Part shown: positions 5,928 through 52,495 of the stretch, piece by piece
Position numbering within the stretch: position 1 is the stretch's first letter
Layout of the letters: each line of letters opens with the position of its first letter
Assembly (NCBI GenBank): GCA_021464245.1
Contig: JADCRB010000056.1
Coordinates: forward strand, 310,001-374,000
From: Carallia brachiata
Taxonomy: Eukaryota; Streptophyta; Magnoliopsida; Malpighiales; Rhizophoraceae
DNA length: 64,000 nucleotides
Direction: 5' to 3'
Program-made: the position numbers and the translations under genes
Notes under the pieces: model-generated
What the model saw: the letters and a program-made list of their open reading frames with translations, nothing else
The model's database searches: none
Told to the model about the DNA's origin: nothing

Positions 5928-6860
5928 ATGGAAAAGTTTGAAGTTTCTATGCCTATCAGCACTGTTCTCGATCGATGGACAAATTATCTTTTGGGTCTCA
6001 AGAGATGTACAGCTTTCTCATGGGGCGCAAACTGTGGCGCTATGTTAGTGGAGCCATTCAAGGCCTACCTTAACAAAGGGAAAAGAGAAGGAAGAAACGT
6101 CAGAGAAATTTGACAAGCTGGCTGAGCAACTTGAAGAATGGGAAAGCATCAATCATAAAATTCTCACATGGTTTGCAATACATCATCCCGAGCATCAAAC
6201 TTCAGTTTGGACGGTTTGGCACTGCAAAGGAAGTCTGGGATTTTTTAGCATCACGATACCAGTTTGTGATGTAGCACATCAGTATCAGCTTCTCGGAGAC
6301 CTCTATCATCTCAAACAACACCGGGTCAGTCTATTAATGCCTTTCTCTCTCAAATGCATGTCATATGGGATCAATTGGTTCTTGCTGAACCTGCATGGGA
6401 CTATCCTTCTGATGCTATTAAGTTCTCCCAATATAGAGATAGAATGAGAATTATGCAGTTTTTAATGGCTCTTACTAATGATTATGAGTCTGTGCGAGCC
6501 TCTTTACTTCATAGAGATCCACTGCCTTCTTTGGAAAGTGTTGTTGCTGAATTGCTTTCCGAGGAAACTCGTTTGTCCACTATGAGAGCTCATCGTCCTA
6601 CTGCACCTACTGATACAGTTTTACTCACATCCTTTCCTTCTGCACCTCGTAAAGTGATTTGTCAATATTGTCACAAGCCAGGTCATCTCATCTCAGAATG
6701 CCGTAAACTACAAGCCAAGCAACATTCTGAACTCAACAAATCCCAATCAGGTCCTATTCCTCAGCCACCAAATCCCAAGGTAAGTTTAATAGAGCCGCAG
6801 CTACCACTGCTATCACTGCTGACACTGAGGATTCATCTACTGACCTTGCGGTACTTTTAA
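5928..6860 (+). pseudogene. Copia gag, frame broken by small indels
   Basis: Gag coats the element's RNA in virus-like particles. It starts at ATG 5928 (MEKFEVSMPIS). The N-terminal part shifts frame several times between about 5970 and 6300. From 6354 the frame stays open for 168 residues through a retrotran_gag-like segment and the zinc knuckle CQYCHKPGHLISEC (C-x2-C-x4-H-x4-C, about 6658-6702). The frame leaves gag near 6780-6860 and protease follows at once, as expected for a single gag-pol polyprotein. Confidence 0.85.
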
Positions 6861-9800
6861 GTCGAGTTGATTTTGATACCCTTAAACAAGCTCTAGTTCA
6901 ATCCGGTACTTCCTCTTCCGCTCTATCAGTTGTCCCAGGTAACTTCACATCTTGGTTCTTTGACTCTGGTTGCTGTAATCATATGACTTCTAATCACACA
7001 CTCTTTACGTCAAAGCAAGTGTCTCCTTTTGCACCTATTATTCATACTGCTGATAATTCTCAAATGCATGTTAGCCACACAGGTCACATCTCTACCTCAA
7101 ATTTGACTCTATCAGATACTTTTTTGGTTCCAAATCTTTCCTTGAACCTTATTTCTGTGGGTCAATTATGTGATCTTGGTCTTGACTTACACTTTTCTTC
7201 CACTGGTTGTCGTGTGCAGGATCCAAAGACGGGTCAGATACTTGGGACAGGCCGTAAAGTTGGACGCTTGTTTGAACTTGTTTCCTTGAAACTACCTCAT
7301 TTCTCTCATAATCATTGTGCTGTATCAGTTTCCTCTGAACTCTGGCATTCCCGACTTGGTCATGTTTCTTCCTCTAAATTGAGTCCTTTAATTTCTAGTG
7401 GTATCTTAGGTTCTGTTAAGGATGTTGACATATCTTGTGTTACGTGTCAGCTTGCAAAACACCATGCTTTACCTTTTAATAAAAGTGATTCTGTTACTTC
7501 TGCACCATTTGATTTAATTCATTCTGATATTTGGGGACCTTCTCCTATTGATACTATGGGTGGATCACGATACTTTGTGATATTTGTGGATGATTACTCG
7601 CGTTATACATGGCTTTATCTTATGAAAAATCGTTATGAACTATTTGATATTTATTCTCAATTTGCTACTATGATCCAAACTCAATTTTCTCAGAACATCA
7701 AATTATTTCGTACTGATAATGCCATGGAATACAAGGATTCCAAATTCTTGCAGCTTCTCTCCCACAATGGAACTGTTATTCAACGTTCTTGTCCTAGTAC
7801 CTCCCAACAAAATGAACGAGCCGAACGGAAACATCGCCATATTCTCGACACAATCCGAGCTCTTCTTATCTCTTCTTCTTGTCCTGAATGTTTTTGGGGA
7901 GAAGCTGCTCTTACCGCCATATTCACCATCAATTGTGTTCCATCCAAAGTCATCAATAATATGTCTCCCTTTGAGCGACTTTATGGTAAACTGCCTACCT
8001 ATGAATCTCTCCGAGTCTTTGGTTGTGTTTGTTTTGTCCTTTTGCAGCCTCATGAACGAACCAAGTTGGAACCTCGTGCGCGTCTCTGTTGTTTCTTGGG
8101 TTATGGAATTGAACATAAAGGGTATCGGTGTTGGGACCCCGTCTCCCAACGTTTACGTGTTTCTCGTCATGTCCTTTTTTGGGAACATAAGATGTTTTCT
8201 TCTCTTTTTTCCTTTCAACTACGTGATTCTTCCCAATCTTTCTTTACTGATCCTTCTATTGAATTAATGTCAAACAATGTGAATACTCGCACATCCTATG
8301 CAGCTTTCCCCTACAGATCCTTTCCCTCCTGATCCTGACACAAGTTCAACAGGTGTTCCACCGGCTACTTCTGACGTATCTTTCCCATCTATGGATCCAG
8401 AGTCTCCCTCTGAGTCTCCTTCCATATCTTCAGATTCTGAGTCTTCTTTCGAGCCTTCACCTGTGCGTCGTTCTTCCCGAGTAAGTAAACTACCTTCTCA
8501 TTTTCAAGATTTTGTTGTTTACTCTACCATTGCTTCCTTATATGAACCTCAAACCTATCGCGAAGCCAGTACTAATCCTCTTTGGCAGCAAGCGATGGTT
8601 GAAGAATTACAGGCTCTATCAAAAACTCACACTTGGGATTTAGTTCAGCTACCTCCTGGTAAATCTGCCATTGGCTGCAAGTGGGTCTATAAGATTAAGA
8701 CCAAATCAGATGGATCAGTTGAAAGATATAAAGCTAGATTGGTAGCCAAAGGATTTACTCAGGAATATGGGATTGACTATGAGGAGACTTTTGCTCCTGT
8801 AGCCCGGATCACTTCAGTCCGGAGTTTATTGGCTGTTGCTGCAGTGCGACATTGGAAGTTGTTTCAGATGGATGTTAAGAATGCGTTCTTAATGGTGATC
8901 TTACTGAAGAAGTTTATATGCAACCACCACCTGGATATGACCATCCACCAAACATGGTCTGTCGACTTCGTCGAGCACTTTATGGTCTTAAACAGGCACC
9001 TCGGGCATGGTTTGCAAAATTCAGTACTACTGTGCAACAATTTGGCTTTTCTTCAAGTTCTTATGATACTGCCTTATTTATGCGCAAATCTGCTAAAGGG
9101 ATCATTTTACTATTACTTTATGTTGATGATATGATTATCACAGGAGATGACTTGCAGGGTATTCATAATCTCAAACAGTATCTCAGTCAGCAATTTGAAT
9201 GAAAGACCTTGGTCTCCTCAATTACTTTTTGGGACTCGAAGTTTCTTCTGATGCTACTGGATACTATTGTCCCAAGCTAAATATGCGTCTGATTTACTCA
9301 CTCGGGCCGGTATTAGTGACAGCAAATCATCTTCTACTCCTCTCGAGTACAATGTAAAATTTTCTCCCACTGATGGCACACTGTTGAAGGATCCTACTCT
9401 TTATCGTCAGCTAGTTGGGAGTCTAGTATATCTTACTGTTACTCGACCGGACATTGCATATGCTGTTCATGTGGTCAGTCAGTTCATGGCAGCACCTCGA
9501 TCTACTCATTATGCAGTTGTTCTTCGTATTCTTCGCTATGTCAAAGGGACTATGTTTTATGGGCTTCACTTCTCTGCTCAATCATCACTTAATTTGCAAG
9601 CCTATTCAGATGCTGATTGGGCAGGAGATCCCACAGATAGACGCTCTACTACAGGATATTGTTTCTTCTTGGGAACTCTTATCTCTTGGCGTAGTAAGAA
9701 GCAAACCGTCACCGCTCGATCAGCACTGAAGCCGAATATCGAGCTCTCGCTGAAACTGCATCCGAATTGATATGGCTTCGGTGGCTTTTACAAGATATGT

Positions 9801-20272: not shown

Positions 20273-20291
20273 GTTCGGATGAGATTATGAA

Positions 20292-21129
20292 TATAACGGG
20301 TAAATTTCGAGTTTAAAATAATTAAACTCGAAAATACAAAAATATAAATTATAATAAAAAATTGTAAAATAAAAAGAAAATTTACGTGGGGTCAATCTCC
20401 GTAGATCTTCCGATTAGTGTTCCTTTTTTGACTCCGTCAAGGGCTGCACGAGTTTGATCTTGACAGCAGTAAATTCCACAGCTTTATCTTGAATTGGGTG
20501 GACTGAAACTGGATCTGATTTTGACGTTTAGACTACAGTTAAGAACCACAGAGACCTGATCTGAGCCGATCTGGTTTAATTTCACCGAGGGTCGAAGGGA
20601 CTTGTTCTCGGATCAACTACTTGGATTTTGCTGAGGGCTGTATGAGGTTTGATCCCAACTGGATTTGCAATATTTTGATATTTTGGATATTTTCTCTCTC
20701 AGATTCTAATTTGAGGCGACTGGAGAGTATATACCCAAAATATTTTTGAAAATGTGTATGATAAATATTCTAAGTCTTTACTTTAGAAGATCGCACTTAA
20801 TAGCGTCTAAAGTGTATATGCCCAAAATATAAAAACGTATGGAAGAGAATGTTTTCTCTTTTTGGGACAATTGCAAATTGGATTTCCTTTGCAATTCCAA
20901 TTTGCAATTGTTGCTACCCGTGTTTGTTTTTTTTGTGTCTGTCCAATGGCCATTGGTTCTACTTATTTATAAGCTTTTTGGGTGCCACTGTGTGGTACTG
21001 TGCCACCAACCTTTTGCTGACCTTTTTTTTTTTTTTTCACCGGTGCCTAACTTTGAATTTTTTTTTCTTTTTCTAGAAGCTGACCTTCTAGATTGCCTCA
21101 TCTTTTTTTTTTTTTTTCATGTGTTTACA
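20292..21129 (-). repeat. Gypsy 3' LTR (838 bp)
   Basis: On the minus strand it begins TGTAAACACATG and ends CGAAATTTACCCG. The outer terminal dinucleotide is mutated (TA instead of TG on the plus strand at 20292); the inner end is intact. Confidence 0.93.
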
Positions 21130-21256
21130 AATGCCCACACTTCAAGGGTTGGTAAGAAAAAATTTTACAGAAATGATCCGAACCGAGTCTTGAAGTCCAG
21201 TTTGAAACTTGAGATGTCTTGATGAACATTGAATGTTGAAGCCTTCTATCTCCCCG

Positions 21257-21895
21257 CTAGACCTGCTTTTGTTGGATCTCAACAGGAAACAGATACGATC
21301 CTGAGAAAGTTAGCAGCCCAGCCAATATAAAAATTGAAGTTTTGGCTCCAGTTGCGTTCGAGCTTCCATAGCTCGTAAAGGTTGGCAAAGGTTCTTTGAA
21401 GTTCCAAAACTCTGGTGAGGATGATCCGGTATGCAAAGAACTTGAACCTCCCCAAGAGGAAGGCCAAGCACTTCGGAACTTCAAGACCTGCACACAGAGA
21501 GACTGACTGTAGTGATGATTCTCAAGTCTGCTTCGACGTAAGGAGAGTAGTTGGAACTTCCATGTACGTCGCTGCATCCAAAGGAAGATTAGGATGATTG
21601 CAGCGTCTCATCTCTCTGTGGTAGATGTGAACTAAAGAGAGTAGTTGGAACTCCATGACACCGATGGCGTTGGAGACTGAGTTTCGAGGGCTCTTAGGGA
21701 TCCCTCGAGGAAGACTACTCCTTCTTTTCTTAGCTCGTGCGCCTCAAACTTCTTAATCAAAGAACTTCCTAGGACAAGTGCAGAGACTAGCCATTTTCTT
21801 TTGAGAAGAAGAATAACTGAGGGGTGAGTATTATGACTCGGACATGTAGGATATATATACATAACATAAAGAGATTTTTTTTTTTGAAAAGTCAA
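21257..21895 (-). other. Unrecognised extra coding-like region next to the gypsy 3' LTR
   Basis: Two minus-strand frames, 21632-21895 (87 residues) and 21257-21577 (106 residues), lie between the homeobox gene and the 3' LTR. Composition is codon-like and less AT-rich than surroundings. The shorter-coordinate frame ends in a hydrophobic stretch (TSIFILAGLLTFSGSYLF) that could be a membrane segment. Upstream on the minus strand is a TATA-like ATGTATATATATCC (about 21850-21866). I do not recognise a family. It may be a second captured fragment or the 3' untranslated part of the homeobox gene. Confidence 0.35.
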
Positions 21896-21980
21896 AAAGG
21901 AGGTACACAGAATCGAGTAGGGTTCTCCATTTCCCTTTTCCCCATAAGAGACAAAAGAGGCAGCGGCTGATGCGGGTTAC

Positions 21981-22036
21981 GAAAGTCGTTACCGTATGCT
22001 ACAGAAGTCGTTGCCGTGTGCTGCAGAAGTCGTTGC
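21981..22036. repeat. 22-bp tandem repeat, 2.6 units
   Basis: Units GAAGTCGTT(A/G)CCGT(A/G)TGCT(A/G)C repeat directly just after the stop codon of the homeobox gene (minus-strand view). Confidence 0.8.
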
Positions 22037-22047
22037 ACCTTATCTTG

Positions 22048-22660
22048 TCAGCCGTCCTGGCGGGGCCCAAGGCGCAGCTCCAAGTTAAGCTCGGCCTCGT
22101 CTAGTGGGCCGATGATGTGGACGTTGCTGGAGCCTCCAGGCTGGTTGATGCTGCTGGAATATTCTGGGAAGAGAGACAAAGTTTCGCCGGAATGACTTCC
22201 TTCTGCTAGAAAAGTCCCTCTCCTGAACTTAAGTACTTAGGAGGAATTAAATCTTGACTAACTCCGTAAGACCACCAGGACCAGTACGCATGCTTCCACA
22301 AGCTACGGCTTTGATCGTTATAGCCTGAAGAGACCATTGCCGTGGTAGAACTCGGACCTGCTTCATTTGAGGGCGAAGCTGTATCGGAACGGCAGACTGC
22401 TCTTTAGAAAAAGCAGCTCTCAGTGCTAGTTTCTTCCTGCTTCTCTGATTCTGGAACCAATAAAACAAATTTTTTCCTTCGATTACCCCGAGCGGGCGCA
22501 ATCGTGAGACAAGTTGGTAAATTTGAGATGCATTAGGCATAATACCTCCATTGTTTTGGAAGACTTCCTCCAAAATTTGCAGTTGTGCCATGGTTGGTTG
22601 TCATGTTGTGCGGGGTGACCTTTCTTCTCCCTTATCTTGAGGTTCTGCAACTGGTTCCAT
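22048..22660 (-). pseudogene. WUSCHEL-related homeobox (WOX) gene captured in a gypsy element
   Basis: WOX proteins are plant homeodomain transcription factors that keep stem cells undifferentiated, acting in the nucleus largely as repressors. From ATG 22660 the frame reads MEPVAEPQDKGEERSPRTT, then a stop TGA (22603-22601) at the position of the conserved homeodomain Trp (a TGG-to-TGA change would explain it), then QPTMAQLQILEEVF, the second helix region LVSRLRPLGVIEGKN, and helix 3 LFYWFQNQRSRKK with Trp, Phe, Asn and Arg of the recognition helix. The frame ends at 22247. One frame over, 22198-22048 encodes TLSLFP (22182-22165), matching the WUS-box TLxLFP, and a C-terminal LNLELRLG EAR-like repressor motif before a stop at 22048. 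An intron or an indel must separate the two blocks. The order homeodomain, WUS-box, EAR motif is that of the modern WUS clade. It lies between integrase and 3' LTR, in the element's own orientation. Confidence 0.8.
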
Positions 22661-22859
22661 CTTTCTTGTGGCAGAGGAGCAAAGGTCTGGTAAGTGGTGA
22701 AGATCGGTTGAGACTGATGCTGAGTTTCAGACTTAAACCCTCCGTCGCTTTTATATTTTTGGGCCGTTCACAGTTTATACTCATGTGGGTCAGGAGTTGG
22801 ATTGGATTTTGAACTTGGGTTATGGACTGTATGTAGAACTTGTAATTTTTTGGGTTTTG

Positions 22860-23060
22860 GGCTTTGGATTGGATTTGGGTCGAGTATTTGAGCTTCTTGA
22901 CTTGGATTTTTGGATTTAGGTCGAGTGTTTGGGTTTTAGATTTGGATTTTTGGATTTGGGTTGAGTGTTTGGGTTTTGAGTCTGGACTTTTGGATTTGGG
23001 TTGAGTGTTTGGGCTTGGATTTTCGAGTTTGAATTTTCGCTTGGACTTTCAGATCGGGAC
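22860..23060. repeat. Diverged tandem repeat upstream of the WOX gene (TTGGATTTGGGTTGAGTGTTTGGG)
   Basis: A unit built from TGGATTTGGGT(C/T)GAGTGTTTGGGTTTTG recurs about four times. Read on the minus strand it gives a Lys/Asn/Pro/Thr-rich pattern that has no coding meaning I can support. Related wording occurs at 26720-26870. Confidence 0.65.
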
Positions 23061-23064
23061 TTCC

Positions 23065-23065
<1 letters not shown>

Positions 23066-23103
<38 letters not shown>

Positions 23104-23150
23104 CTTTTTGACTTTTTTTTTTTTTTTTTCCTTTTTTTTTTAAAACATAT
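23066..23150. repeat. Long T-rich (minus-strand poly-A) run
   Basis: About 80 bases almost entirely T, with a T homopolymer of more than 30 bases. It follows the pol stop codon on the minus strand; homopolymer length is likely to be uncertain in the assembly. Confidence 0.85.
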
Positions 23151-26100
23151 TTACACATAATACTGTTTCAGAAATTTACCATTGATCGGGCCAATTCGGA
23201 CGCCTTCTTGGTCTGACAGCATGTAAGCGTTGTGAGTATAGGCCTCCTGCACTAGGTATGGCCCGTCCCATTTGGAAGTAAGCTTGTCACCAGGCCGATG
23301 CTTCATGTTGATGGGCCGTCGCACTGCAAGAACAAGGTCTCCAACTTGAAAAGATCGAGGGCGGACCCTGCGGTTGAACGTGTTGGTGAGCCGGGCTTGG
23401 TAGCACTCAAGTTGCTGTTGTGCTTCAGCCTCCTTTCATCAAGGGCTTCTAACTCATCCAGACGTAGGCGAGCATTCTCCTCCTGTGTGAGTCCTTCCAG
23501 AACAGCCATGCGCAGAGATGGAATCTGTGTTTCCAACGGCAGTATTGCTTCGACACCGTAGACAAGTGAGTATGGCGTCGCCTGTGTTGGAGTCCGGTAA
23601 GTTGTACGATACGCCCATAATGCCTCCGGAATTCTGTCATGCCAATCTCTTTTGGATTTAGAGACTACCTTCCGCAATAGGTTGCATAAGGTCTTGTTGA
23701 ATGCTTCCAAGCCATTTGCTGGGGCATTGTACATGGATGACTTGTACTGCTTGAACTTGAACTTCTCGCAGAGCTTGTCCAAGCTGTTGTAGAACTGCTT
23801 ACCATTATCAGTGATGATGAATCGAGGGACTCCATAGCGATAGATCAGCTGAGTCCGGATGAAATTGGCAACATGCTCCTTCTTTACCTCTCTAAGTGGA
23901 ATGGCTTCGCCCATTTTGAGAAGTAGTCGTTGCTGCGAGGATGTACAGGTGACCCAGGGATGACTTTGGCAAGGGCCCCACTAAGTCGAGACCCCAAGCT
24001 TCAAAGGGCCAGGATGAGACAGTTGGATGCAGTGGCTCCGGTGGTTGATGTATGTAATTGCATGAAATTGACAAGCTTGACAAGTTTTAGCAAACTCAAT
24101 GGAATCACGTACCATGGTTGGCCAGTAGTATCCCATCCTTCTGAGTTGAAGTGCAACTTAGGCCCTGATTGATGTCCGCCACAAACACCAGAATGTGCTT
24201 CAGTGAGAGCCTGTTTTGCCTCTTCATTGCTAGGCAGCGAAGTAAAACTCCATCAAAAGACCTTCGATACAGAGCATCCTTGAGATATGAAGCGGGGAGC
24301 TCGTCGTTGAATTTCTGTCTTATGACGACGATCTTCGGGCAGCTTCCCGTGCTGTAGGTAGTCAATGATTGGTTGGCGCCAATCTCGTCCTCCGCGAGAC
24401 GTACAGATACAGCGTTGGCTGCTGTAGTTTCTTCATCATCCTTCTTGGCACTATCCATTTCTGGCATACGGCAACAACTGTAGCCTGGATTTCTGACTTT
24501 GCAAGAGAGGTGGCCAGGTTAGCCAACGCGTCTGCCTGAGTGTTTTCTCGTCGAGGCACATGCTCCAAGGTGATGCTTTCAAATTCATCCATTAGCTGTC
24601 GAGCACGTTGATGGTAAGGCGCAAGGTCCTCTTTCTTCACGTCATACAACCCTGTAAGTTGGTTGATGACGAGCTGGGAATCTCCATGGACTTCTATAGT
24701 TGGAATCTTCATATCGACAGCCATTTGAAGACCAATGATCAAAGCCTGGTATTCAGCAACATTATTTGAACATAACTCACCGAGAATGATAGCATATGGT
24801 AGTATTTGTCGTTGAGGAGTGACAAACACTATGCCGGCACCAGCACCATCACGTCTTGCTGCACCATCAAAGAACATCGTCCATGGTGGCAGTGTCTCAA
24901 TGTAAAAGACCTCTTCATCTGGAAGATCATCTGTGAACTCCCAATCTGACGGAAGGGTGATCTGCAAGGAAGTCTGCTAGAGCTTGTCCTTTGACTGCTT
25001 TTTGAGGCACGTAGACAATGTCGTAGCTTTGTAGGATTACTGCCCACTTGGCAAGTCGTCCTGACAAGATTGGTCTAGATAAGATATATTTGACAGGATC
25101 AGCTCTGGCAATGAGACGTACCGTGTGAGCTTGCATGTAGTGCCTCAGCTTGTCAATGGCAAAGAACAGTGCTAGACATGTCTTTTCAATGGGCGAATAA
25201 CTCAGTTCCGGACCGTTTGGTGTTCTACTCAAGTAATATAGGGCAACTTCTTTTCCTTGCTCATTTTCCTATGCAAGTAAGGCTCCCAAAGATCTTTCCT
25301 GCGCTGCAATGTAGAGAATCAACGACTTTCCTTGAATTGGAGCTCCCAGGACTGGTTGATTGGAAAGGTACTTCTTTATGCTCTCAAAGGGTTTGCTGCA
25401 AGCTTCGTCCCACTCGAAGTTGACATCCTTTTTCATTAAACGATGGAAAGGTTGACATTTCCCAACTAAGTTAGAAATAAAACGGCGAATGTAGGCCAGC
25501 TTTCCTTGTAAACTTCGCAGCTCGTACAGGCTTTTAGGTTCAGGCATCTTTTGAATTGCCTCAACCTTTGACTGATCAACTTCCATTCCACGATACCTTT
25601 TGGGGTGCGAAATACTGTCAACTCCTCGTCTTCTGGTGCCATTCTGATTTGGTTATAGGCTGAAGAACCATCCATGAAGGACAATGCTTCGTGACCCGTT
25701 GTTGCATCGACTGTGATCTCCGTTATTGGCAACGGAAATTCATCTTTCGGATAGACCCTGTTAAGATCTCGAAAATCAACACATACCCTTAACTATCCAT
25801 TCTTCTTTCTTACCGGGACTATATTGGCAATCCATGTTGAGTAGGTGACCTCTCGGATGAAACCAGCATTGATTAGCTTGTTAACCTCCTCCTCGATTTG
25901 TGGAATGAGTTCCGGGCGGAACCGTCGTTGTGGCTGCTTGACAGAATGAACACCTTTCTTTACTGCTAGATGATGCACTGCAATTTTTAGGTCAAGTCCA
26001 GACATTTCTTTGTAACTCCATGTGAATACATCCCTGTATTAACTTAATACCTGAACATATTTTTGTTCTTCTTCTACAGTAAGTAAAGCACTTACAAATG

Positions 26101-27961: not shown

Positions 27962-28805
27962 TGTAAAGGGTAAATTTCGAGTCTAAAATAATTAAACTCG
28001 AAAATACAAAAATAAATTACAATAAAAAATTGTAAAATAAAAAGAAAATTTACGTGGAGTCAATCTCCGTAGATCCTCCGATTAGTGTTCCTTTTTCTAC
28101 TCCGTCAAGGGCTGCACGAGTTTGATCTTGACAGCAGTAAATTCCACAGCTTTATCTTGAACTGGGTGGACTGAAACTGGATCTGATTTGGACGTTTAGA
28201 CTACGGTTAAGAACCGCAGAGACCTGATCTGAGCCGATCTGGTTTAATTTCACCGAGGGTCGAAGGGACTTGTTCTCGGATGAACTGTCTGGATTTTGCT
28301 GAGGGCCGTATGAGACTTGATCCCAGCTGGATTTGCAATATTTTGATATTTTGGATATTTTCTCTCTCAGATTCTGATTTGAGGCGACTGGAGAGTGTAT
28401 ACCCAAAATATTTTTGAAAATGTGTATGATAAATATTCTAAACCTTTACTTTAGAAGATCACACTTAATAGCGTATAAAGTGTATATGCCCAAAATATAA
28501 AAACGTATGGAAGAGATTGTTTTCTCTTTTTGGGACAATTACAAATTGGATTTCCTTTACAATTCCAATTTGCAATTGTTGCTGCCCCGTGTTTGTTTTT
28601 TTTGTGTCTGTCCAATGGCCATTGGTTCTGCCTATTTATAAGTTTTTTGGGTAGTACTGTGTGGTACTGTGTCAACAACTTTTTGCTGAACTTTTTTTTT
28701 TTTTTGTCGGTGCCTAACTTTGAAATTTTTTTTTTCTTTTTCTAAAAGCTGACCTTCTAAGATTGCCTCCTCTCTTTTTTTTTTTTTTTGTTTCATGTGT
28801 TTATA
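27962..28805 (-). repeat. Gypsy 5' LTR (844 bp)
   Basis: Matches 20292-21129 throughout. It keeps TGTAAAGGG at its inner edge (27962); its outer edge reads TTATA where the other LTR has TTACA. Confidence 0.93.
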
Positions 28806-30754
28806 ATGAATTCAAATATCAAATCTCACTTGAATCTTTTCCTTCCAATTCAATTAGACCAAATAAAATTGGACAGTTGTTTCCGGCAATTGTTTCGCCA
28901 CTTTGTTTACAACACCGCTGTACTTAAAGGATGTAGATTATTATTTGTTTAGAATGAAAGATCTTTTTTTTTTTTTCTTCTTTATAAATGTACGAAATAT
29001 GCACCAACTTAGCTATTGGGATGACCTGAAATAAGCAAACAGTTAGTCTTATATATTTTATATTTTTGTAATTAAATTTTATAAATTTGGACCGTTTTGA
29101 TTGAGTCTTAAACGTTAATAGATTTATTTCAATTAAATACAATTTTGGATAAAAAAGTTTTGACCATTAAGTACAGTTGGTTTTCACAGTTAAACATTGT
29201 GAAATATAAAGAATATGCAGAGTAAAAATTATTTAAAACCATAAAATTGCATATAAAACAATTATTCTAAATTATAATTTATTGAACAAAATATATCTCA
29301 AAAAACAGAAACCCAAAATGGAGATATTTGTCGCTGCTCTGTCTGCTGTAACCAAGCAAGGAGATGGTGGAACTCTTAGCCTTTCTTCTGCTTTCTTGGC
29401 CCCGCCGCGTTTGTTGCCAGGGATGGATCTTAATGGGGGCGAGGGGCGCCCCCTCCCCGACGGCCTTATTTATTCATAATTAGTGTATGCATAAAATTCA
29501 ACAGAAAAGCAATTTTAGTCCAGTGGTTAGTGCGCTTGCTTTCCCCTTTGAAGTCTTTCGGTGTTTTATTTTTGGGAATTTCACCCCAAGCACAAGTACA
29601 ACGACAGACAGTTGAAGTTCAAAGTCTCTTCAATCTTACAAATACAAAACGTCGTCAAAGACTATAGGATATACACAATATTTTTGAGATAAAAATGCCA
29701 CATGCAAAATATTTTTGGAATACAAATGTTATAAATAAATAGATTTACTTTGAAATGTTACTATTTAAGGCAGTAGTCTAATGATAATTCAGTACGTATC
29801 TTACGTAATTAATTCGAGTTCAAATTCAGGAGCTCACATTTTCCTCTAATCAATGGAATGGATGCCCTCACCTAAATTAGGGTTGAAGGTTTGGTCCAAG
29901 CGCAGCAGTTAGATCTAGATCTGACAATCATCGAGTAGATTATGGAAAAGTTACATCTGGACTTAATAATGTGGCAGTGGATTTATTCTTATGGAGGTGA
30001 TTAAATAAAGTATTCAAATGGGATATTACTTGGATACCAGTCTACAAGTGTGATAACAGATATACACACGCGATATGCTTTTTTTCACTGTTTAAAAAAA
30101 AGTTTGAAATGTCGCCAACACTATTTTTAGAAGTATTTTATTTTCTAAAAAATTAACTATTGGCAATGAATAATATAAAAAAAAAAATACATAGAAACAT
30201 ATTGTATATACAAATATGTTTTTTTTTATGGAATTAAATTTAATTTCATTGGTTCCAATATTTACAATGAAAAAACTTTCTCTGTAATCACTATCTTAAA
30301 GCATCTATTACAAAATTTTACAAGATATAAATGATTAAATAATTGTATCATTACTTATCTTTATATATATATATATATATATATATACTTGATTAGAAGA
30401 AAAATAGAAAGATAATATTCAAAAATTAAAACTCATAAAAACTAATTATGATGTTCATTAATTAAAATAATTAATATATTTTTATAAGACTAGTTTAGAT
30501 TAACTAGAAGTAAAAAGATTTTTTATAGTACTAAAATAAAAAAAGAATGTCAAAAATAATCATTTTATTGTTTAATCAGTAACAAGTTGTTTAAATTTAA
30601 TCAAATATTATAATTTCATTATATTCATTAGTAACGAAAATCAATAACAGTAAATAGTAATTAGTAATAGCAACAACAATTAATAACAGCAAACATTAAT
30701 TAACAATAAAAATAGCAAAACCAAACAACTCATGGGTGGGTTGTTTGGGACTAT
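28806..30754. other. Intergenic, no supported gene
   Basis: 28860-28935 is the continuation of the pre-insertion flank shared with about 59000-59060. A GC-rich patch at 29396-29465 contains the palindrome AGGGGCGCCCCCT. About 29515-29540 reads TTAGTCCAGTGGTTAGTGCG, like a tRNA-type A box, but no B box follows. A (TA)13 run lies at about 30363-30388. The frame at 29282-29479 is not assigned. Confidence 0.45.
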
Positions 30755-31410: not shown

Positions 31411-32256
31411 GTTAGTCCATTTATTAGAATAAAAAAAACAGAGAGATATCACTTCTTTTAGCAAAATTTTAGACTCGACATCACTATTATATCATAGTCA
31501 GTAAATTAATAAATTCAAAAATAATGAAATTTTTTACAACAATGTGATAAACTTTATGGAAAGTATTAGTGCAATAATCAAACTAATAAAATTATAAGGC
31601 ATCGTAGATATGGTACAAAATGAACGTAGTGCACATTTTGTTAATTAATTAATTCTAATGTGTCATTAATTTCTATTCCCAAATATCGTTCTTTTTCCAT
31701 TGTCTTCCACAAAAGTGATGGCCATTTTGACCATGTCACTGCGACTGCCAACGTTGAAATGACCCTAGTACACATTTTGTTAATGCCAAAGCCGCAATTT
31801 TTTCTTGAAGGCATGTTGAAGCTTACAAATTCTTACCGATTATCAAAGAGATTATGTTTTATCGCTTCATTATAATAAGTGTTTATATTTGTCATCAAAG
31901 TTATTTAATAATCAATGTAAAGTTTTTTTTTTTTTTTATTAAGATAGTAACTTAGATTCGTGAGCAAAACACTTGATAAATTTAAATTCTTAAATAAAAA
32001 TATAAACAACTAAAAATAAACTCATATCATGACACTACAAGAGATCACTTCTTTTCAAGCTATTTTTTAATACTTTATAAGCGTTACTCCAAACTATAAT
32101 ATTTTAGCAACAAACGATCGTATGTCCATATATCAACACATACATATATATAATAAAACTTGATATTCAGGTAATATGTTGTCTGAATAACTTTTGGTAT
32201 GGTCGTAAACATTTATTGAAATACATATATTCGTTGGACTATAAAGGTTGCAGTTC

Positions 32257-34046
32257 TCACAGCACAGAGAGACTGCGCAAAACAACAGTCTCGACTGTTA
32301 GGCCTGGGCCGAACCCAAACAAAACACCCCATTCCAAACCTTCACCCGTTGTGGCCTTCCCCTCTTCTGCAGAGAGCTTTCGCATATGGTCCAATATAAA
32401 GAGCACAGAAGCACTCTGCAGGTTGCCATACTCACTCTGCACATGCCTTGTTGCTCTCATTTTTTCTTCCTTTAGTCCAAGTTCAGTCTCAATGGCGTCC
32501 AGAAGCCCCTCGCCGCCAGGGTGTACAATCCAAAAGAGTGAGTTCCAATCGCTAATGCCCATCGGCTTGAATGCTTCAGTAAGGCATTTTTCTACGTTCT
32601 TTGCAATCAATTGAGGGGCACCTTTTATTACGTGAAAAGTGAGACCCACTTCGCGGAGGTGCCCTGCTATGGCGCCATCAGAACCAGGAACAATTGTTTG
32701 TGCCGCGGACACCAACTGATACAACGGACGCTCGTGGACGGAAGCATCAGGGTCTGCACCAACAACAACAGCTGCTGCACCGTCACCAAATAGCGCTTGA
32801 CCCAACGTAGAATCCAATTGAGTCTCAGACGGGCCACGGAAAGAAATGGCTGTAATGTCGGAACAAACAGCAAGAACACGCGCGCCCTTGTTATTCTCTG
32901 CCAAGTCTTTGGCGAGACGGAGAACAGTCCCACCGCCGAAGCAGCCCTGCTGGTACAACATGAATCGCTTGACAGAGGGACTCAGGCCAAGAAGCTTGGT
33001 AAGCTGGTAGTCTGCACCAGGCATGTCGATCCCTGAGCTTGTGCAGAAGACAAGGTGGGTGATATTGGACTTGGGTTGACCCCATACTCCTCGATGGCCT
33101 TGGCGGCTGCTTTCATTCCTAGCTTTGGGACCTCCACCACCACTATGTCTTGGCGTGCATCGAGGGATGGTGCCATGTATTCGCACATGTTGGGATTCTC
33201 TTTCAGCAATTCTTCTGTCATGTGCATATGACGTTTCCTGATCTTTGATTTTTCACCTGCACATGTTAGTTAAAACAAATGTCATTTAGCCGCCTTTTGA
33301 CCAACGATCGGCTTCCCCCATCACTAGTATTCTGTTGCTTTTTTTTTTTTTTTAACAAAAATAATTCATGGACATTAAAGTAGCCGTCATGTTGCTGGGC
33401 GAAATAGATTTCCATTAAAGACCAGAGATTATTAGACTCAAAACAGAAATAAAAATGTTACAGCGTATCTCATGAGAAGGAGGAAAAGAAAAAAAAGCAA
33501 ACTGCATCGTTCGATTGGAGTCTTAGAAATGGAACATCAAAACAAAGGGATATATAAAATATATATGTAATTAATTTAGTGTGAAGAAGAAGAACACAAA
33601 GAAATTCTTGGTCTGAATCAGAGAAGATGAAAATCCCATACCAGCGACTGTCGTTGTTTTTCACTGCATCAAAGCGAATCAACACATCTAAATCTCCAAA
33701 TCACATAAACACAGCAACAAATATGGATCGATCCCAAAAAGATAGCGCAATCAAAAACCAATTGACAGCACAGAATATACAACCTTTCTCTTTTAAGCAA
33801 AAGAAGCTGTTGTCAATTAAGTAGTATAAATCTAAGTTGTGCTTGCAGCACCCTGAACAATAAAACAAAATTAAAATTGAAATGCTTTAGCCGTTGAAGG
33901 GTGTATATTTGTTAAAATTTCAGTGACTCCATCAGCAAAAGTTTGTTTGTCCGATCAAGAATAGATTCGGAGATCGTTTAAAAATCATTTCTGTTAGGTT
34001 TATTGAAGTAGAAAAAACAAAACAAAAAAGAATAGGTGATGAAGAA

Positions 34047-34080
<34 letters not shown>

Positions 34081-34279
34081 TAAATGAAAACATACACATG
34101 CGCTTGAATGTCTCTTTGAGTTCTGTCTTGTGCTCACTATTGGTAATCCTGAAGTAATAATCAGGGTAGTTAGCTTGATATACACAGTGTGATGGGTTAG
34201 CCGTACCAATAGCTAGTATGGTTGCCAGACCCGTGACTTTCTGAGTATTTTTGATTATGTCGTCCACCACTGAACTCAT
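32257..34279 (-). CDS. Type III polyketide synthase (chalcone-synthase-like), copy 1, frameshifted
   Basis: Type III PKSs are cytosolic homodimers that extend a CoA starter with malonyl-CoA and cyclise the product. Exon 1 is 34279-34096; exon 2 is 33256-32257. The 839-bp intron (GT at 34095, AG at 33257) splits the Cys of KRMC, the family's conserved intron site. Intact length would be about 393 residues. Catalytic Cys (QQGCFGGG), His (FWIVHPGG) and Asn (EYGNLQSA) are present, as are both gatekeeper Phe (QALFGDG, GLTFH) and GFGPGLTVE. Relative to alfalfa CHS2 (numbering recalled), cavity positions read Ser132 (CTSSG), Ser197 (TAISF) and Gln338 instead of Thr, Thr and Ser, so the product is probably not naringenin chalcone. 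A 2-base insertion at about 33084-33088 (EEY against EEW in copy 2) shifts the frame: pseudogene or sequence error. Confidence 0.9.
34056..34080. repeat. (AAT)n microsatellite in the PKS copy 1 intron
   Basis: About nine TAA/AAT units immediately downstream of the exon 1 splice donor. The array is nearly absent in copy 2 (45790-45805). Confidence 0.85.
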
Positions 34280-34418
34280 TATTTGTGCTTAATTTATACT
34301 GAACCTAACTTCTTAGTACTAAGGATAGGGAAGTGGGAGAGTTGCAGAGGTACGGTATGCAAATTGCCCAGCTTGTGTTTCTTTGCGGGTTGGGGATGCT
34401 AATGGCCTATGGCTATAG

Positions 34419-34431
34419 GTATATATATACA
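34419..34431 (-). promoter_or_regulatory. Probable TATA box of PKS copy 1
   Basis: GTATATATATACC on the minus strand, about 140 bases before the ATG. Copy 2 has the same word at the same distance (46141-46153). Further upstream, CCGTAGTGGACAAG and a GGCCAACGTGGCGG word (ACGT core; changed to CAACGCGG in copy 2) are near 34530-34555. Confidence 0.6.
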
Positions 34432-34449
34432 TAGATAATGCACACGATG

Positions 34450-35175
34450 ATGCAAATTGTAGTAGGTGTAGAGCATGGATGTTCCACATTCCACTTGGAC
34501 AATAATCATTCCTGTTTTTGGGCTTAACGCCGCCACGTTGGCCCCGTAGTGGACAAGGGACAATTTGGCCAAAATAATCCATACATATTTTTCCGATTAG
34601 AGATAATCACCCTGAACTTTATATAAGTGGAAAATTGACGAGGAAATAAATAAACTAAAGAGTAATGCAATGTAACGTCACAACTGCGGTCACGAATGAT
34701 TACAAAATTATTTATGATTTGATTAGAGGTTTTTTCTTTTTTTATAAAAATTAATTTTTTTAAAAAAGTAAATTTTAAGTAGTATCTAATATTATTTTAA
34801 ATATAAGTTTTATAATAAAAATAAATTTTAAATAATATTTAGTATTACTTTAAACGTATTTAACATTATTTTGTATCATAATTTTTAAAAAAAAAAAAAC
34901 ACCTTTTGATTTTGAAATAAAAAAAAGAAACCCACTTCTCATAAAACAACTTTTTTAGGTGGACTTTGGGAAGGGAAATTTCGTGATGAATTCATAAACT
35001 AAATGAAGTAAGTCAAAGAGAGGTTATTGGGGGTTGTTAGAGTCCATGTCAGCGTTGAATTTCTGTTGCTAGCGGATTATAGTTGTGTGCAAGTACAACT
35101 ACGAGAACTTGATTATTAGACTAATTCTTAAATACCCACCGTATTGTCCAGTGACTCCGTGTCCGTTCTTTTATA
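34450..35175. other. PKS copy 1 upstream region, no gene
   Basis: AT-rich promoter-side sequence shared with unit 2 (46160-46893). It includes a TAATATT-rich patch at 34770-34870. Nothing coding is visible. Confidence 0.45.
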
Positions 35176-35183
35176 ATTGATGG

Positions 35184-35813
35184 TAGGGGTGTTAAAAAGA
35201 AATTAAAAATTTAAGTTAATCAAAAAAATTAAACTAAATTGGATAATTTTTAGTTAACTAAAGTAATTTTGTAATAAATTAATCGAATCGAATAAAAATT
35301 AAAATTTTTAATTTAATTTTAATTTTAATATTAAAAAATTATAGTTATCCGAATCGAACTTAACTGAATCGAAATACTATACATCTATATATATATTTCT
35401 AATAATAGGAAAATATATTACTAATACAATAATTATTAACAAATAAATATCAATAAAATATTCTTATATTTCAAATTTTTTATTTATTTAATTTTATATA
35501 CAATGATAATTATAATTTTTTAATAATATATATATATATATAATAATTTTTTACATTTAAATTATAATTTAAATTTTTTTATTATTAAATTTAGTTAACT
35601 AAACAATTAATCGAAACTAAACCGAAATTTTTAATTAACTAAAATTTCAGTTAAGGAACAATTTTTAATTTTACATAATCAAAAATTTTAATTTATGAAT
35701 AATTATGGTATAATTTCTGTTAAGAAACAATTTTTAATTTGATATAATCAAAAATTTAAATCTGTGAATAATTATGATATTTAATTCAATTAACCAAATC
35801 ATTAACACTCCTA
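35184..35813. mobile_element. hAT-like MITE in unit 1
   Basis: Begins TAGGGGTGTTAAAA and ends TTAACACTCCTA, an inverted terminal repeat. It is flanked by the 8-bp direct repeat ATTGATGG (35176-35183 and 35814-35821), the hAT TSD length. The interior is AT-rich with CCGAATCGAA words. The orthologous copy in unit 2 (46902-47440) shows it was inserted before the duplication. Confidence 0.85.
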
Positions 35814-35821
35814 ATTGATGG

Positions 35822-36443
35822 GTCATCAGCGCAGGGAAAGGCGTCATTGTCAGGTCAGGACAATCTTAAGGCCATGCTAAAAGAAATCTTCTAATTTTGT
35901 TGGACTGATTTGACCAATGATGTTTACTATTTTCACATTTCAATTTCTTTGTTTTTTTTTCACTTTAAAAAAAAAAAAACTAATATGATAAAAAAAATAA
36001 TTATAAAATAGTCATAAGTAATAAAAAAAAAATTTTAGTAGAAACAAATTTTTTTTGAAATTTTTATGAGGAGTGGGTTTTTGTCGAGGCTGGGCAAAAA
36101 GGAGACTTTTAATATTACTAAGTTATATGTGGTAGTGCATTTTAATTTACGATGAATTAAGAAAAAGTTGGTTTAAGAATAAATATAATTAAAATATTAT
36201 TTGATAGTATTTCTTTTAATTGAATTTTAAAAGTACAGTACCCTCAAAACCAAGATTTGAAAAAAAACTACAAATTGAAGTTTTTTCCCGGTCGGGCAAA
36301 AAAATCAAAAGACCTCGCTGCATCTCAAATTAACGTGATGGACAAAAATATTTCTAGTGTTTCAATAGATTTCCACTATATAAGTTTTTGTTTTTCTTCT
36401 TCTTCTCTTCGCTGATTTTCTTCCACTCCAACGCAGACCTCCA
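35822..36443. other. Intergenic; upstream region of the GatA-like fragment
   Basis: AT-rich sequence shared with unit 2. A TATA-like CACTATATAAG lies at about 36375-36385, followed by a CT-rich leader, which resembles a promoter for the fragment that follows. Confidence 0.4.
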
Positions 36444-36766
36444 ACTTACATAGCCCTGCTCCGCTCATGTCTCCACATATCTGAGAACTTCCTCAAACAA
36501 GCCGCTTTTAGACGACAAGATTCACATGAGTGAGGTTGTAGGTCTTCTCGTCGGTGTGTTTGTCAGTTTCAAGGATAAGATTTGCTGAAGCAAACATGCC
36601 CTCCCCTGGTGTCTTCCTCATTTTCCGTGACTATAACTCTCCATATGATGCCATGATTGTCATGAGACACAAGGACATGGGTGGGATTGTCCTCGGGACG
36701 ACTAATTTAGTTGAATTTGGTATGAGAGGTACTACCGAAACTTTTGCCTTTCAAGTTTTTTGTTAA
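36444..36766 (+). pseudogene. GatA (glutamyl-tRNA(Gln) amidotransferase subunit A)-like fragment, unit 1
   Basis: GatA is the amidase subunit that converts Glu-tRNA(Gln) to Gln-tRNA(Gln) in chloroplasts and mitochondria. The frame at 36554-36766 reads RDYNSPYDAMIVMRHKDMGG, IVLGTTNLVEFGMRGTTET and FAFQV. These match the family pattern PPFDATAV...GGIVVGKTNLDEFGMGSTTE.SAFQV, with the catalytic-site Lys of GKTN replaced by Thr. Upstream, in another frame, is the family's LHVSENVLK.A...VGPLAGVLVG-like stretch. Stops and frameshifts, plus loss of the Ser-rich signature that should follow FQV, show a dead fragment of roughly 105 residues. Confidence 0.7.
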
Positions 36767-38685
36767 CAGTCTTCCCATATCCTCCCGAGGATATCTTTCT
36801 CCCCTAATTACTATCAAAAATGTCAACTTTGCTTGTCCAATACATGACCCAATGTCAATCTCAACTTCTGCTACATCTATTTAATATGAGATTTTTCAAT
36901 TTATTTTTTTATCTTTGTAGCCATATGATTATATGAAAATTCAGGTTGATTCAATCTCTGTAGAATTAAGTACAATTGTCTTTCCAATTTATCCTTTTCG
37001 CCATTCAAAGTATAGGGGTTTGGATGTGGTTTATCTCTACTAATGAGCATCTATGTGTGTTTGTGTTCCGTGACCATTGATTCCATGAGACCGTACCAGG
37101 AAAAATGCCAACTAATTTGTGAACGATGGATTGATCTCATAGAATTTGGCTACCTAAAGATACGCTCGAATCCTATGCTCTATTCAACGTCTAACCAGAT
37201 CTGTTACATTCTACTCGAAAAAGATATTTTGTTGCTCCAAATGCTCTTCTATAACAGCTTCATTATGCTTTGCTGAATGTCCGAATTACCTGTAGGTGTA
37301 AGACGCCGAGAAATGCAGTCTCGCAGCCGGTTTATCAGCCAGTCAATGCCATGTAGCTGTTAGTTCACAGAGAGTTCAGCGTAGCTTCCACCACTCCTCA
37401 GGCTCTCTTCTAGTGGTGTGATGATCACGGAAAGGTCAAAGTTTCATATTCCTGTACAACGTGGCCATTGTAAAAACTAGTGTGGTGGGACATAAATTAC
37501 CGAGAGTGTGTTGAAGAAGCTTGATCGTTTAAATTTGGGTGTTCGAAAGAAAAAGAACTTGGATTCATGTGCAAAGCCTATTTATCACATGATTACAGCG
37601 TTAGTTCTGTTATTTTGTTTAAAGTATATAACTTGTTATGGTTACCAAATGCAAATGGCTCTGATTTGCCAGTAACTATTATCTATTAACTTGATATTGC
37701 AGTTACTTTGATGAATTAGATTAATCTCCCTTATATATAGTTTGGATTCTCTTTTTAAATTATTTTTTTTCAATTGACAATATTCTTCTTTATATTGCAT
37801 TCAATATTTATGTCTCAAAAACCTAAAATGAAATATTTTTCTCTAATTCCCGAGCAAACAAAGTTACATTACAGATTTAGGGTTAACATTCAAATTAAAA
37901 TGCAAAATATGTGAATAAATATTGGGTTATATATATATAGTTTGATATTTAAACTAAGGAGCTGTTCTAACTACAATTTTACCTAACAAACAAAAAAATC
38001 ATATAATTTTGAGTAACAGCACTTTTATCCGAGAACTTTTGGTTACAGCATTTTATTTTATAGCATTTTATGTCACAGTATTACTAATCGGAGCCTAAAC
38101 ATTTTTATATCGATAAAGTTACTCAATTATTATTTTCACGTGACATAATCAGTTACAACATTACGTTTTTTTTTCTTTTTTTTTTTGTAAAAATAAGAGT
38201 AAAATCATGCATATATGATCTTTGCAACAATCTTAAGGATTCTTTTTTTTTTTTAATTTCATTGGACTAGACCCTTCCTCAGAGTATGACATTATTTTTG
38301 GAGATTCGACATCAATCTTCTTGTGATAACTTTTCAATGGGAATTTCTTAAATAGGCACAAAACATATAATAATATTAAAAATTTTGAAAATGGTGTCAT
38401 GAAATATATTAAAATGTATAATTATGAAAAAAAATCATTAATTTGTTTTCTTTTTTGATTTGATGGTGTTAGAAAAATTAACGATTTTTTTCATAATTAT
38501 ACATTTCAAAATATTTCATGACACGATTTTAGAGATGTTTAACATTACTTCAAAATATATATATATATTTCTTTTCTTTGGTATTATCAATTAAGCATAA
38601 ATAAAATTTTTGCGTCCTCCAATACAAAATTTCTGCTCGCGTGATCTGAAATGTCACTAGCTAATTTTGGCTTAGTGTATTAAGG
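36767..38685. other. Unit-1-specific and shared non-coding DNA
   Basis: 36767-37100 matches unit 2 (49318-49650). About 37100-38290 has no counterpart there: unit 2 joins CGTAC directly to TAATTTTTGG. The unit-1-only part begins with less AT-rich, transcript-like sequence (37070-37600; a frame at 37043-37276 includes YQEKCQLICERWIDLIEFGY) which I cannot identify. Confidence 0.5.
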
Positions 38686-38689
38686 GCCT

Positions 38690-39410
38690 ATTTGAGTTAA
38701 CTGTTAAATATTACTATTACTGATTGCTGTTGTTGATTACTGTTACTGATTACTAATTGCTGATTCCTACTTGCTGTTACTGATTACTGATAAAATTAAT
38801 GAAGTGTTTAGTTAATTTTATACTTACTGTTACTGTTAGATAATAAAATGTCTAATTTAGACATTTAATTTATGTAGATATATCATATCAAAAATTTTAA
38901 TATTTCATAATTTTATATTTTTTGAATAATATTTTATAAATAATATTGAGAATTGTTTTACTTAATTTCAACTTTTTAAAATATATTAATTTTTACTAAA
39001 TGATAAAAATTATTATATTTGAAATTTTTTTTATAGATGTCAGTATTAAAAAAAATTGAAGTGAAAAAAATATTATTTAAGAACAGTTAAAAAAAGAAAT
39101 TATTGAAATTATATAAATATTAACAAAATAAATTAACATATTAAATTCATGTGTGAAGTGAAAAAAATAATAGTAAAATTATATAGATATTCTTTAAGGG
39201 TAATTTAACCCATATAAATTATTATTAATATTAAAAAGTGAAAAGTAATCAAAAAAGAAGTAAAAAGTAGCCTGAATCTGCTTTTCAATTAACTATTTTT
39301 AGGAAATCAAATAAAAAAATAAGTAGAATCAAATAATAACACTAAAAAGTTTACCAAACACCTATCTTTCTACTTTTTGAAAATGAAGCGCAAATACACC
39401 TCTTTAAAAG
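38690..39410. mobile_element. Probable MITE or degenerate insertion, unit 1 only
   Basis: The insert starts near AGGGCCTATTTGAGTTAACTG and ends near TTACCAAACACCTATC, giving weakly inverted GG..CTATTTG / GGTGTTTGG ends. The inside has repeated TTACTGATTACTGTTACTG words. Unit 2 lacks it (GTGTATTGAGAAATTTACTT at about 49846). No clear TSD. Related wording at 30640-30735 suggests a family. Confidence 0.5.
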
Positions 39411-39901
39411 TTAATTCAAACCCCCCTAGAAATTTACTTATAGTATGTCCCTGACTATTTTAAAATAAGAAAAATTGATTTGTTCTACAAAATTGTGCGT
39501 CCTGAGTGCTTGGCTATCGACTAGAATAGTTTTAGTATATGTGCTCGGTCTTATGGCCAATGGCCTTAATATATCCCAAAACATGTACTTAGATACAACA
39601 GCACGTAGGCCTTGGATTTGACCCCAATTTTCTATGGAACCGAACAAGCTTTGGTTGTTTTTATCTTTATGGTATCATCAAACACAATTGATGAAAATTA
39701 CAAGATTGAGCCCTAAAAAAAATACATTATTCTATTTAGCTTATATAAGATATATGGTAAAAAGAGAAAATTTATCCTGCCTTCCCATATTTTTCACGAA
39801 AAAAAAAAAAAAGAGATATCTTCCCCCCCCCCCCCCTAAGTAGGAGCAAATCTTTTTTTGAACACAATACAATTTGCGACGTGGGATGTATTTTTTTAGA
39901 G

Positions 39902-39934
<33 letters not shown>

Positions 39935-42465: not shown

Positions 42466-43765
42466 ATTTAACCATAAGGATTTAGTGTGGGGGTATAACT
42501 CATGATATAGTGTAATTAACGCAATTTTTTTATCAGAATTGTAAGATATAAATTCTATTTTCTCATTTATTAGAATAAAAAATTTGAGAGATATCTCTTC
42601 TTTTAGCAAAATTTTGGACTTGACGCCACTATTGTATCATAGTTAACAAATTAATAAATTCAAATATAATGAAATTTTTTACAACAATGCGATAGACTTT
42701 ATGGAAAAAAATTGTTAGGTACAATAATCAAATTAATAAAATTATAAGGCATGGTAGATATGGTACAAAATGATAATATTACTATTTAAGGTGGTAACTC
42801 AACAGTAAGTTTACGTGAGTTTTTATACCTATACTCCCCTCTATCATAGGTTGGGTGGTCCTTAAGAGTAAAAAGTGATATGTTGTGATGGGTGCATCGC
42901 TCAGTAATTTTCGTGATCTCTAGTGGTGTAATTATGATCAGTTTCTCTAGTACTTGAATAATGGATATGTTCTTTTAAAGTAATTGAATAAGATTTTAAT
43001 AAATAAGAATTATTTTAGTTTCGATTAACAGATCTAATAAACGGTATATTTATGATAAAAAAATTTTATTATTAAAAAAAAAAGTAGTGAATAGTTTGTT
43101 AATTAATCCATTCTAATGTGTCATTAATTTCTTTTCCCAAACATCGTTCTTTTTCCATTGTCTTCCATAAGTGATGGCCATTTTGACCATGTCACTACGA
43201 TTGACAAAGTTGAAATGACCCGTAGTGCACATTTTGTTAATGCCAAAGCTGCAATTTTTTCTTGAAGGCAAGTTGAAGCATACAAATTCTTACTGATTAT
43301 CAAAGAGATTATGTTTTATCGCTTCGTTATAATAAGTGTTTATATTTGTCATCAAAGTTATTTAACAAAAAAAAAAAAGCTATTTAATAATCCATGTAAA
43401 GGTTTTTTTTTTTTTTAGTAAGATAGTAATTTAGGTACGTGAGCAAAACATTTAATTAATTTAAATTCTAAAAAAAAAATAAAAATAACTAAAAAAAATT
43501 TATATCATAACACTATGAGAGATCACTTCTCTCTAATTTATTTTTTATCACTTTATAAGCATTAGTTCAAACTACAATATTTTAGCAGCAAACGCTATCA
43601 GAGGTTATGCCCATGTACAAACACGCACACATATAGATCATAAAACTTAATTATACAGCCAAACTAAAAAATTATTCAGGCAATATATTGTCTGAATAAC
43701 TTTTGATATAGTCATAAGCATTTATTGACAGACATATATGCGTTGGACTATAAAGGTTGCAGTTG

Positions 43766-46001: not shown

Positions 46002-46140
46002 TGTTTGTGCTTAATTTATACTTGAACCTGACTTCTTAGCACTAAGGATAGGGAACTGGGAGAGTTGCAGAGTTATGGTATGCAAATTGCCCAAGTTTGT
46101 GTTTCCTTGCGGTTGGGGATGCTAATGGGATATGGCTATG

Positions 46141-46153
46141 GGTATATATATAC
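46141..46153 (-). promoter_or_regulatory. Probable TATA box of PKS copy 2
   Basis: Same TATATATACC word and spacing to ATG as in copy 1. Confidence 0.6.
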
Positions 46154-48049: not shown

Positions 48050-48058
48050 TAAAGTTAT

Positions 48059-48480: not shown

Positions 48481-48534
<54 letters not shown>

Positions 48535-50822: not shown

Positions 50823-50831
50823 GGATTCCAT

Positions 50832-51393: not shown

Positions 51394-51402
51394 GGATTCC
51401 AT

Positions 51403-52477: not shown

Positions 52478-52495
52478 AGAGAAGCAAATGGTATT

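Follow-up and report, generated by a model that had tools for sequence, protein, structure and literature searches.

Retroviruses transduce host transcription factors as v-onc genes. Plant LTR retrotransposons also carry additional open reading frames (ORFs), which may be env-like and in sense orientation or, as in Grande, RIRE2 and Retand, antisense. Whereas the additional ORFs described elsewhere are env-like or of unknown origin, the one considered here appears to come from a recognisable host developmental regulator. It resembles maize Bs1 in that a spliced host mRNA lies inside an LTR element, but its cargo belongs to a family for which about 700-800 pattern sites were counted. It shares with Arabidopsis WUSCHEL (structure 6ry3) an extra residue in helix 1 of the homeodomain, the residues that read bases, and the order of homeodomain, WUS-box and EAR motif. 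Half of the homeodomain residues nevertheless differ (32 of 64 are identical to WUS of the host), the recognition helix ends in RRSRKK rather than HKARER, and Arg occupies the S36 position. The cargo gene also lacks introns, is shorter than WUSCHEL, and exists in hundreds of copies.

Neither accessory ORFs nor gene transduction is new in itself. Among the literature matches listed, however, no case was seen in which a developmental master regulator of the host is present across an element family that numbers hundreds of copies. No earlier description of a WUS-type cargo in a retrotransposon family was seen among those full-text matches, which cover few subscription papers. The term 'homeo' is absent from the main texts of PMC7264820, PMC6317226 and PMC11963269, and 'WUS' is absent from those of PMC7264820 and PMC11963269.

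We analysed a stretch of 64,000 nucleotides of the Carallia brachiata genome, called the window here, together with sister copies of the element elsewhere in that genome (designated by L numbers). From comparison of these sequences, we think it quite probable that a spliced WUS transcript was captured long ago by a Tat-lineage Ty3/gypsy element and was then maintained as an accessory gene. Its homeodomain would be under selection, and its product would be a putative nuclear repressor that aids the element.

Structure of the element in the window

The element occupies positions 28805-20292 on the minus strand (8514 bp), and TTCAT flanks both ends (Table 1). Its LTRs have TG..CA termini and a 5-bp target duplication when read by eye, with one changed base where the 5' LTR starts and another where the 3' LTR ends. 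A self-BLAST comparison finds the LTR pair to be 93.7% alike over 829 columns. Integrase frames reach down to about 23151 on the minus strand, and the cargo then lies between integrase and the 3' LTR in the orientation of the element. A second RNase H is present between the first RNase H and integrase, so that the domain order matches the one given for angiosperm Ogre and Retand elements in the available text of PMC6317226. The Tat-lineage gypsy label that the first-pass annotation had assigned consequently fits.

Table 1. Features of the element and its cargo in the window
Feature	Positions	Strand	Evidence or remarks
5' copy of the target-site duplication, TTCAT	28806..28810	.	read by eye
5' LTR	27962..28805	-	844 bp; ends by eye
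RT / RNase H pieces	24927..25792	-	PF17917 E=2.2e-17; PF17919; PF00078 E=9e-7, just below its cut-off
Second RNase H, of archaeal type; a hallmark of the Tat lineage	24362..24976	-	PF13456 (RVT_3) E=1.6e-25
Integrase piece	23303..23980	-	PF00665 E=5.3e-4, 20.6 bits, under cut-off of 32.6; adjoins cargo in sister copies
Conserved block ahead of the ATG with TATAAAAG-like site; may be promoter or 5' UTR	22661..22800	-	alignment of copies
WUSCHEL-type cargo ORF, broken	22048..22660	-	has a stop in place of the conserved Trp and a frameshift; lacks its terminal stop
Open stretch with homeodomain, starting just past the stop	22247..22600	-	PF00046; WUSCHEL 6ry3
WUS-box TLSLFP and EAR-like LNLELRLG tail	22048..22180 (approximate)	-	aligned with intact copies
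3' LTR	20292..21129	-	838 bp; ends by eye
3' copy of the target-site duplication, TTCAT	20287..20291	.	read by eye

The pol region of the window element is 98.6-99.0% like that of the young copy L018 (between -2400 and -600), whereas its cargo is only 88.0% like the L018 cargo, and the window copy therefore looks mosaic. The pattern extends over window positions 21129-25200, as though elements recombine between pol and cargo. In another young copy (L025), a single antisense frame of at least 110 aa, with a length of 113 aa, is found between the cargo and the LTR. The Retand sublineage has an antisense ORF, TRP28, between pol and the 3' LTR, according to the available text of PMC11963269.

Two other groups of features were observed in the window. 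Remains of a Ty1/copia-type retrotransposon lie on the plus strand at 6049-9770, with an integrase core and an SH3_retrovirus domain in 6731-8332. Two chalcone/stilbene-synthase-type genes (PF02797, PF00195) lie on the minus strand at 32257-33252 and 43766-44617 within a tandem duplication of about 11 kb (31617-42456 and 42564-53777), the pieces of which are 83-94% alike.

The cargo in the window copy

The homeodomain of the window copy matches PF00046 with E=1.1e-8 (35.1 bits against a Pfam cut-off of 22.9). Among solved structures, its best match is to Arabidopsis WUSCHEL (6ry3, E=2e-14), followed by STENOFOLIA (E=4.3e-13). Protein searches thus place WUSCHEL nearest and keep the domain inside the WOX family, as had been supposed from the first reading. 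The homeodomain part is found in a minus-strand frame that reads MEPVAEPQDKGEERSPRTT*QPTMAQLQ...FYWFQNQRSRKK, and a different frame past the frameshift carries the WUS-box and EAR part (GETLSLFPEYS...AELNLELRLG). Although the homeodomain and the WUS-box/EAR part occupy separate frames in this copy, reading these frames recovers, in the direction of the element, all three motifs that had been reported from the interval that separates integrase from the 3' LTR.

The cargo begins with an ATG at 22660, and alignment with an intact copy puts the end of the homologous ORF at 22057. Because the window copy has no terminal stop of its own, reading continues to 22048. Its internal stop falls on codon 20 of 207, where the other copies read have the homeodomain Trp, exactly as first described. 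The Arg codon that precedes this Trp is also altered, so both R38 and W39 (WUS numbering) are gone. Within the family, the window copy counts as an older member, and a broken one. A protein search with its broken homeodomain piece found no relative among 8 candidates.

Distribution of the cargo among sister copies

The genome (337.5 Mb) contains 734 sites of a 24-base homeobox pattern and 803 sites of an integrase pattern at up to three mismatches, and control searches with the reversed patterns return 0 sites for each. For 53 of the first 100 exact integrase sites listed, the same strand carries an exact homeobox site at a distance of 1226-2284 bp downstream. We fetched 10 of the 47 unpaired sites, and the block or a part of it is present with a less similar homeobox in all 10, so no family member that lacks the cargo was found in these 10 of 47. 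Locus L054 keeps only the first 219 bp of the block, and L053 has a part missing. On the same contigs, 22 of the 76 exact homeobox sites listed have no listed exact integrase site upstream. The pol region is directly upstream of the cargo in 19 of 20 high-scoring loci, with L027 as the exception.

Domain and DNA searches give a comparable picture. A PF00046 search returned 1346 candidates, of which 150 were scored and about 100 of these were judged by length and score to be of the element type; 25 element-type homeodomain copies were read as sequence. A DNA search with the cargo returned 1197 candidates, and the 40 that were scored, the window itself among them, are 86-100% alike. Three loci (L060-L062) fetched from the 150 listed of 3755 PF13456 candidates have no cargo downstream. 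These high-scoring loci are, by appearance, presumably LINE-type RNase H genes, and so they are not clearly sister Tat elements.

In the copies sampled, the WUS-type block is a trait of the element family and not a private insertion, although some members outside this sample may lack it. The presence of hundreds of copies indicates that the cargo spread with the element, and the earlier suggestions that it had done so and that more gypsy copies carry it both hold. That a later, independent insertion, with a target duplication of its own, brought the block into the window is extremely improbable. The same block adjoins pol in nearly all of the high-scoring loci and occurs in whole or in part at every further integrase site fetched. 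Nothing was found in favour of such an event, which the sister copies rule out.

An uninterrupted ORF from the Met to the end of the EAR motif is present in 12 of the 20 fetched copies (L011, L012, L016 and L018-L026), although this fraction is biased upward because the 20 were selected for high homeodomain scores. The earlier guess that intact sisters might exist was correct. Seven copies are identical over all 624 bp of the cargo. In four young copies, mismatches between paired LTRs number 10/546 (L019), 7/543 (L020), 7/775 (L022) and 4/186 (L014; 95.1-96.5% identity for these four with gaps counted), against 43/829 in the window.

Identity and donor of the cargo

An intact cargo protein of 207 aa matches PF00046 (E=2.2e-12), WUSCHEL 6ry3 (E=2.9e-18) and STENOFOLIA (E=7.2e-16). 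It has 419 protein matches, and many of the 120 listed are named WUSCHEL while others are hypothetical proteins. No protein among these 120 of 419 exceeds 53% local identity to the cargo, so that they include no close relative of it. Repeats are often masked in annotation, so relatives elsewhere could be missed. In viral contigs, six stretches matched a pattern, and none of them was a relative.

The cargo homeodomain is one residue longer than those of the host's other WOX genes. Its length is the same as in all 120 of the matches listed (of 419) and in both host WUS genes. The available text of PMC7203112 describes a single-residue insertion in helix 1 (Y54) as specific to WUS among WOX proteins. 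This residue is H in most of the aligned rows, Q in the window, and Y in L050, L054, L055 and L057. The latter four form a diverged cargo subfamily, in which the homeodomain reads NVYFWFQNRRHRE (L054) and NVYFFFQNRRNRE (L057).

The host itself has two WUSCHEL genes (L039/L044 and L040/L045) and pairs of WOX4-like, WOX1/3-like and WOX13-like genes, and this pairing suggests a past genome duplication. Host WUS is nearest to that of Erythroxylum novogranatense (64-66%), which would put the genome in Malpighiales close to Erythroxylaceae. Our labels for the host genes (WOX2, WOX4-like, WOX1/3-like and WOX13-like) are presumptive. When frames and intron borders are read by eye, each of the WUS genes (L044, L045) shows two introns past the homeodomain, whereas the cargo runs through without one. 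This difference indicates that a spliced transcript was captured.

The trees leave the donor unsettled. A tree of 33 rows groups the element copies with WUS (support 95/93), but a grouping with other WOX genes passes the AU test (p-AU = 0.31). In a run with 30 rows, the free tree instead joins the element copies to other WOX genes (78/73), and the grouping with WUS is also retained (p = 0.41). The cargo branch is very long in these analyses, at 0.9-1.7 changes per site. Residue identity in the homeodomain is 34/62 with host WOX2 and 32/64 with host WUS, which, like the tree results for other WOX genes, would agree with a donor elsewhere in the WUS clade (for example WOX2, WOX4 or WOX5) and convergent gain of the extra residue. 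We regard such a donor as rather improbable, and it overlaps in part with the capture proposed above. The highest alignment score, in all four cargo rows tested, is with the host WUS pair and is free of gaps, and the homeodomain of WUS length is universal among the best relatives listed. The first-pass proposal that a host developmental regulator was captured inside the element agrees with the shared orientation, the WUS-type order of domains, and the recurrence of the block in sister copies.

Conserved residues and motifs

Intact copies keep R38, W39, K82, N83, Y86, Q89, N90, R94 and R100, in a WUS numbering that is our own mapping onto residues named in the available text of PMC7203112. K92 and R96 are each replaced by the other basic residue. 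S36 is Arg in the intact copies, and an S36R change in WUS is described in the same available text (PMC7203112, which also names the WUS-box) as leaving TGAA binding similar and raising affinity for TAAT six-fold. Phe is found at Y86 in L054, and L057 has Phe both there and at the next Trp.

The WUS-box is a T-L-x-L-F-P motif located downstream of the homeodomain. Most rows, like the window, have TLPLFP or TLSLFP here, and the motif is altered in some others (for example, EILPLF in L010, L012 and L050). Both the WUS-box and the EAR motif are readable, with some residues changed, in the copy rows that reach them; the exceptions are L053, which is rearranged, and L054, which is cut off.

Tests for selection on the cargo

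Homeodomain omega is 0-0.28 in 14 pairs that compare the young copy L025 with copies that differ from it in this domain. The values are 0.07 with L011, 0.06 with L012, 0.26 with L027 and with the window, and 0.25 with L054. Homeodomain dS between the young copy and other subfamilies is 0.1-0.5. Pairs that involve broken copies give higher omega values of 0.75-0.84 (L009, L011 and L028 versus the window) and 1.01 (L027 versus the window).

A test for excess synonymous change took the neutral synonymous share (0.28-0.29) from the substitution spectrum of the flanks; its pairs share branches, and its p-values are uncorrected. Read with these limits, the homeodomain shows an excess between L025 and L011 (p = 0.0033), L012 (p = 0.0012), L054 (p = 0.007-0.018), L042 (p = 0.0030), L050 (p = 0.009), L055 (p = 0.021) and L041 (p = 0.039). 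The excess is not significant for L025 against L027 (p = 0.13), the window (p = 0.10) or L037 (p = 0.085), or for L011 against L054 (p = 0.13). Over the whole ORF, L025 has an excess with L011 (p = 0.045), L012 (p = 0.023), L027 (p = 0.0028) and the window (p = 0.026). Raw counts of codons fixed between two subfamilies are 8 synonymous and 13 non-synonymous. The whole coding region displays no extra conservation over downstream DNA in seven pairs (Fisher p = 0.19-0.86), whereas for the homeodomain compared in this way p falls below 0.05 in four of six pairs (range 0.009-0.12).

The block directly upstream of the cargo also seems to change slowly. In seven pairs, 4-11 of the 140 bases before the ATG have changed, whereas the rate downstream is 8-12% (Fisher p = 0.01-0.29, with two of the seven pairs below 0.05). 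A TATA-like block is conserved 60-100 bp ahead of the ATG, which makes a promoter of its own an equal candidate to the LTR for the putative expression of the cargo. The LTRs are not enriched for the WUS motifs TGAA and TAAT, and TGAA counts in the window LTRs are if anything low (8 versus 14.2 expected and 7 versus 13.4 expected). Self-regulation by binding to the LTR is consequently without support here.

The omega values and synonymous excess of the homeodomain, together with the slow upstream block, suggest that the DNA-binding part and perhaps the promoter have been kept. Moderate evidence thus points to purifying selection on the homeodomain while the subfamilies diverged. A WUS transcript captured once could also have hitch-hiked as a passenger without gain to the element, its ORF being intact merely because many copies are young. 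Many of the fetched copies are indeed near-identical and young, the ORF as a whole has diverged as much as the DNA downstream of it, and omega in the homeodomain rises to 1.0 in pairs of broken copies. The tail between the WUS-box and EAR motifs evolves quickly (omega 0.28-1.86), and captured gene fragments are known, as in maize Bs1 (available text of PMC7264820). The low homeodomain omega at appreciable dS between the young copy and other subfamilies argues the other way, as does the persistence of readable WUS-box and EAR motifs on either side of a drifting tail, and each of the 10 further sites fetched has retained the block, in whole or in part. A pure passenger is less likely than a maintained accessory gene, and we consider it unlikely.

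Possible history and function

In the history that we favour, a maintained accessory gene, spliced WUS mRNA would have been taken up by template switching. The intronless gene, placed downstream of integrase and ahead of the 3' LTR, then became an accessory gene, and in our sample it has been retained and has spread. The cargo may be expressed from the short TATA promoter just upstream or through a spliced LTR transcript. Judging from its motifs, the protein would enter the nucleus and bind WUS-type sites, and it could recruit TOPLESS-type corepressors, a role known for the WUS-box and EAR motifs. The benefit to the element is more speculative. The protein might favour a state like that of stem cells or the germline, or it might weaken host defence there. 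WUS-dependent mechanisms exclude viruses from shoot stem cells, and interference with this exclusion is an alternative conceivable benefit.

A stronger proposal can be put forward tentatively, and we think it more doubtful than not. The element would encode a working WUSCHEL-like regulator, a plant counterpart of a retroviral oncogene, that either drives cells to a stem-cell or germline fate or works as a decoy that counters WUS-dependent virus exclusion, so that insertions are inherited. In that case, the differences in its recognition helix and the Arg in place of S36 might reflect a shift to target sites of its own.

Implications

Extra genes are common in plant LTR retrotransposons, and their origin and function are mostly unknown; here, the source is a master regulator of shoot stem cells. 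With a clear source and hundreds of copies, some of them intact, the use of host developmental regulators by an element to gain access to the germline becomes testable. Counts of WOX genes in related genomes may include copies borne by elements, and WUS-like transcripts in those genomes may stem from elements.
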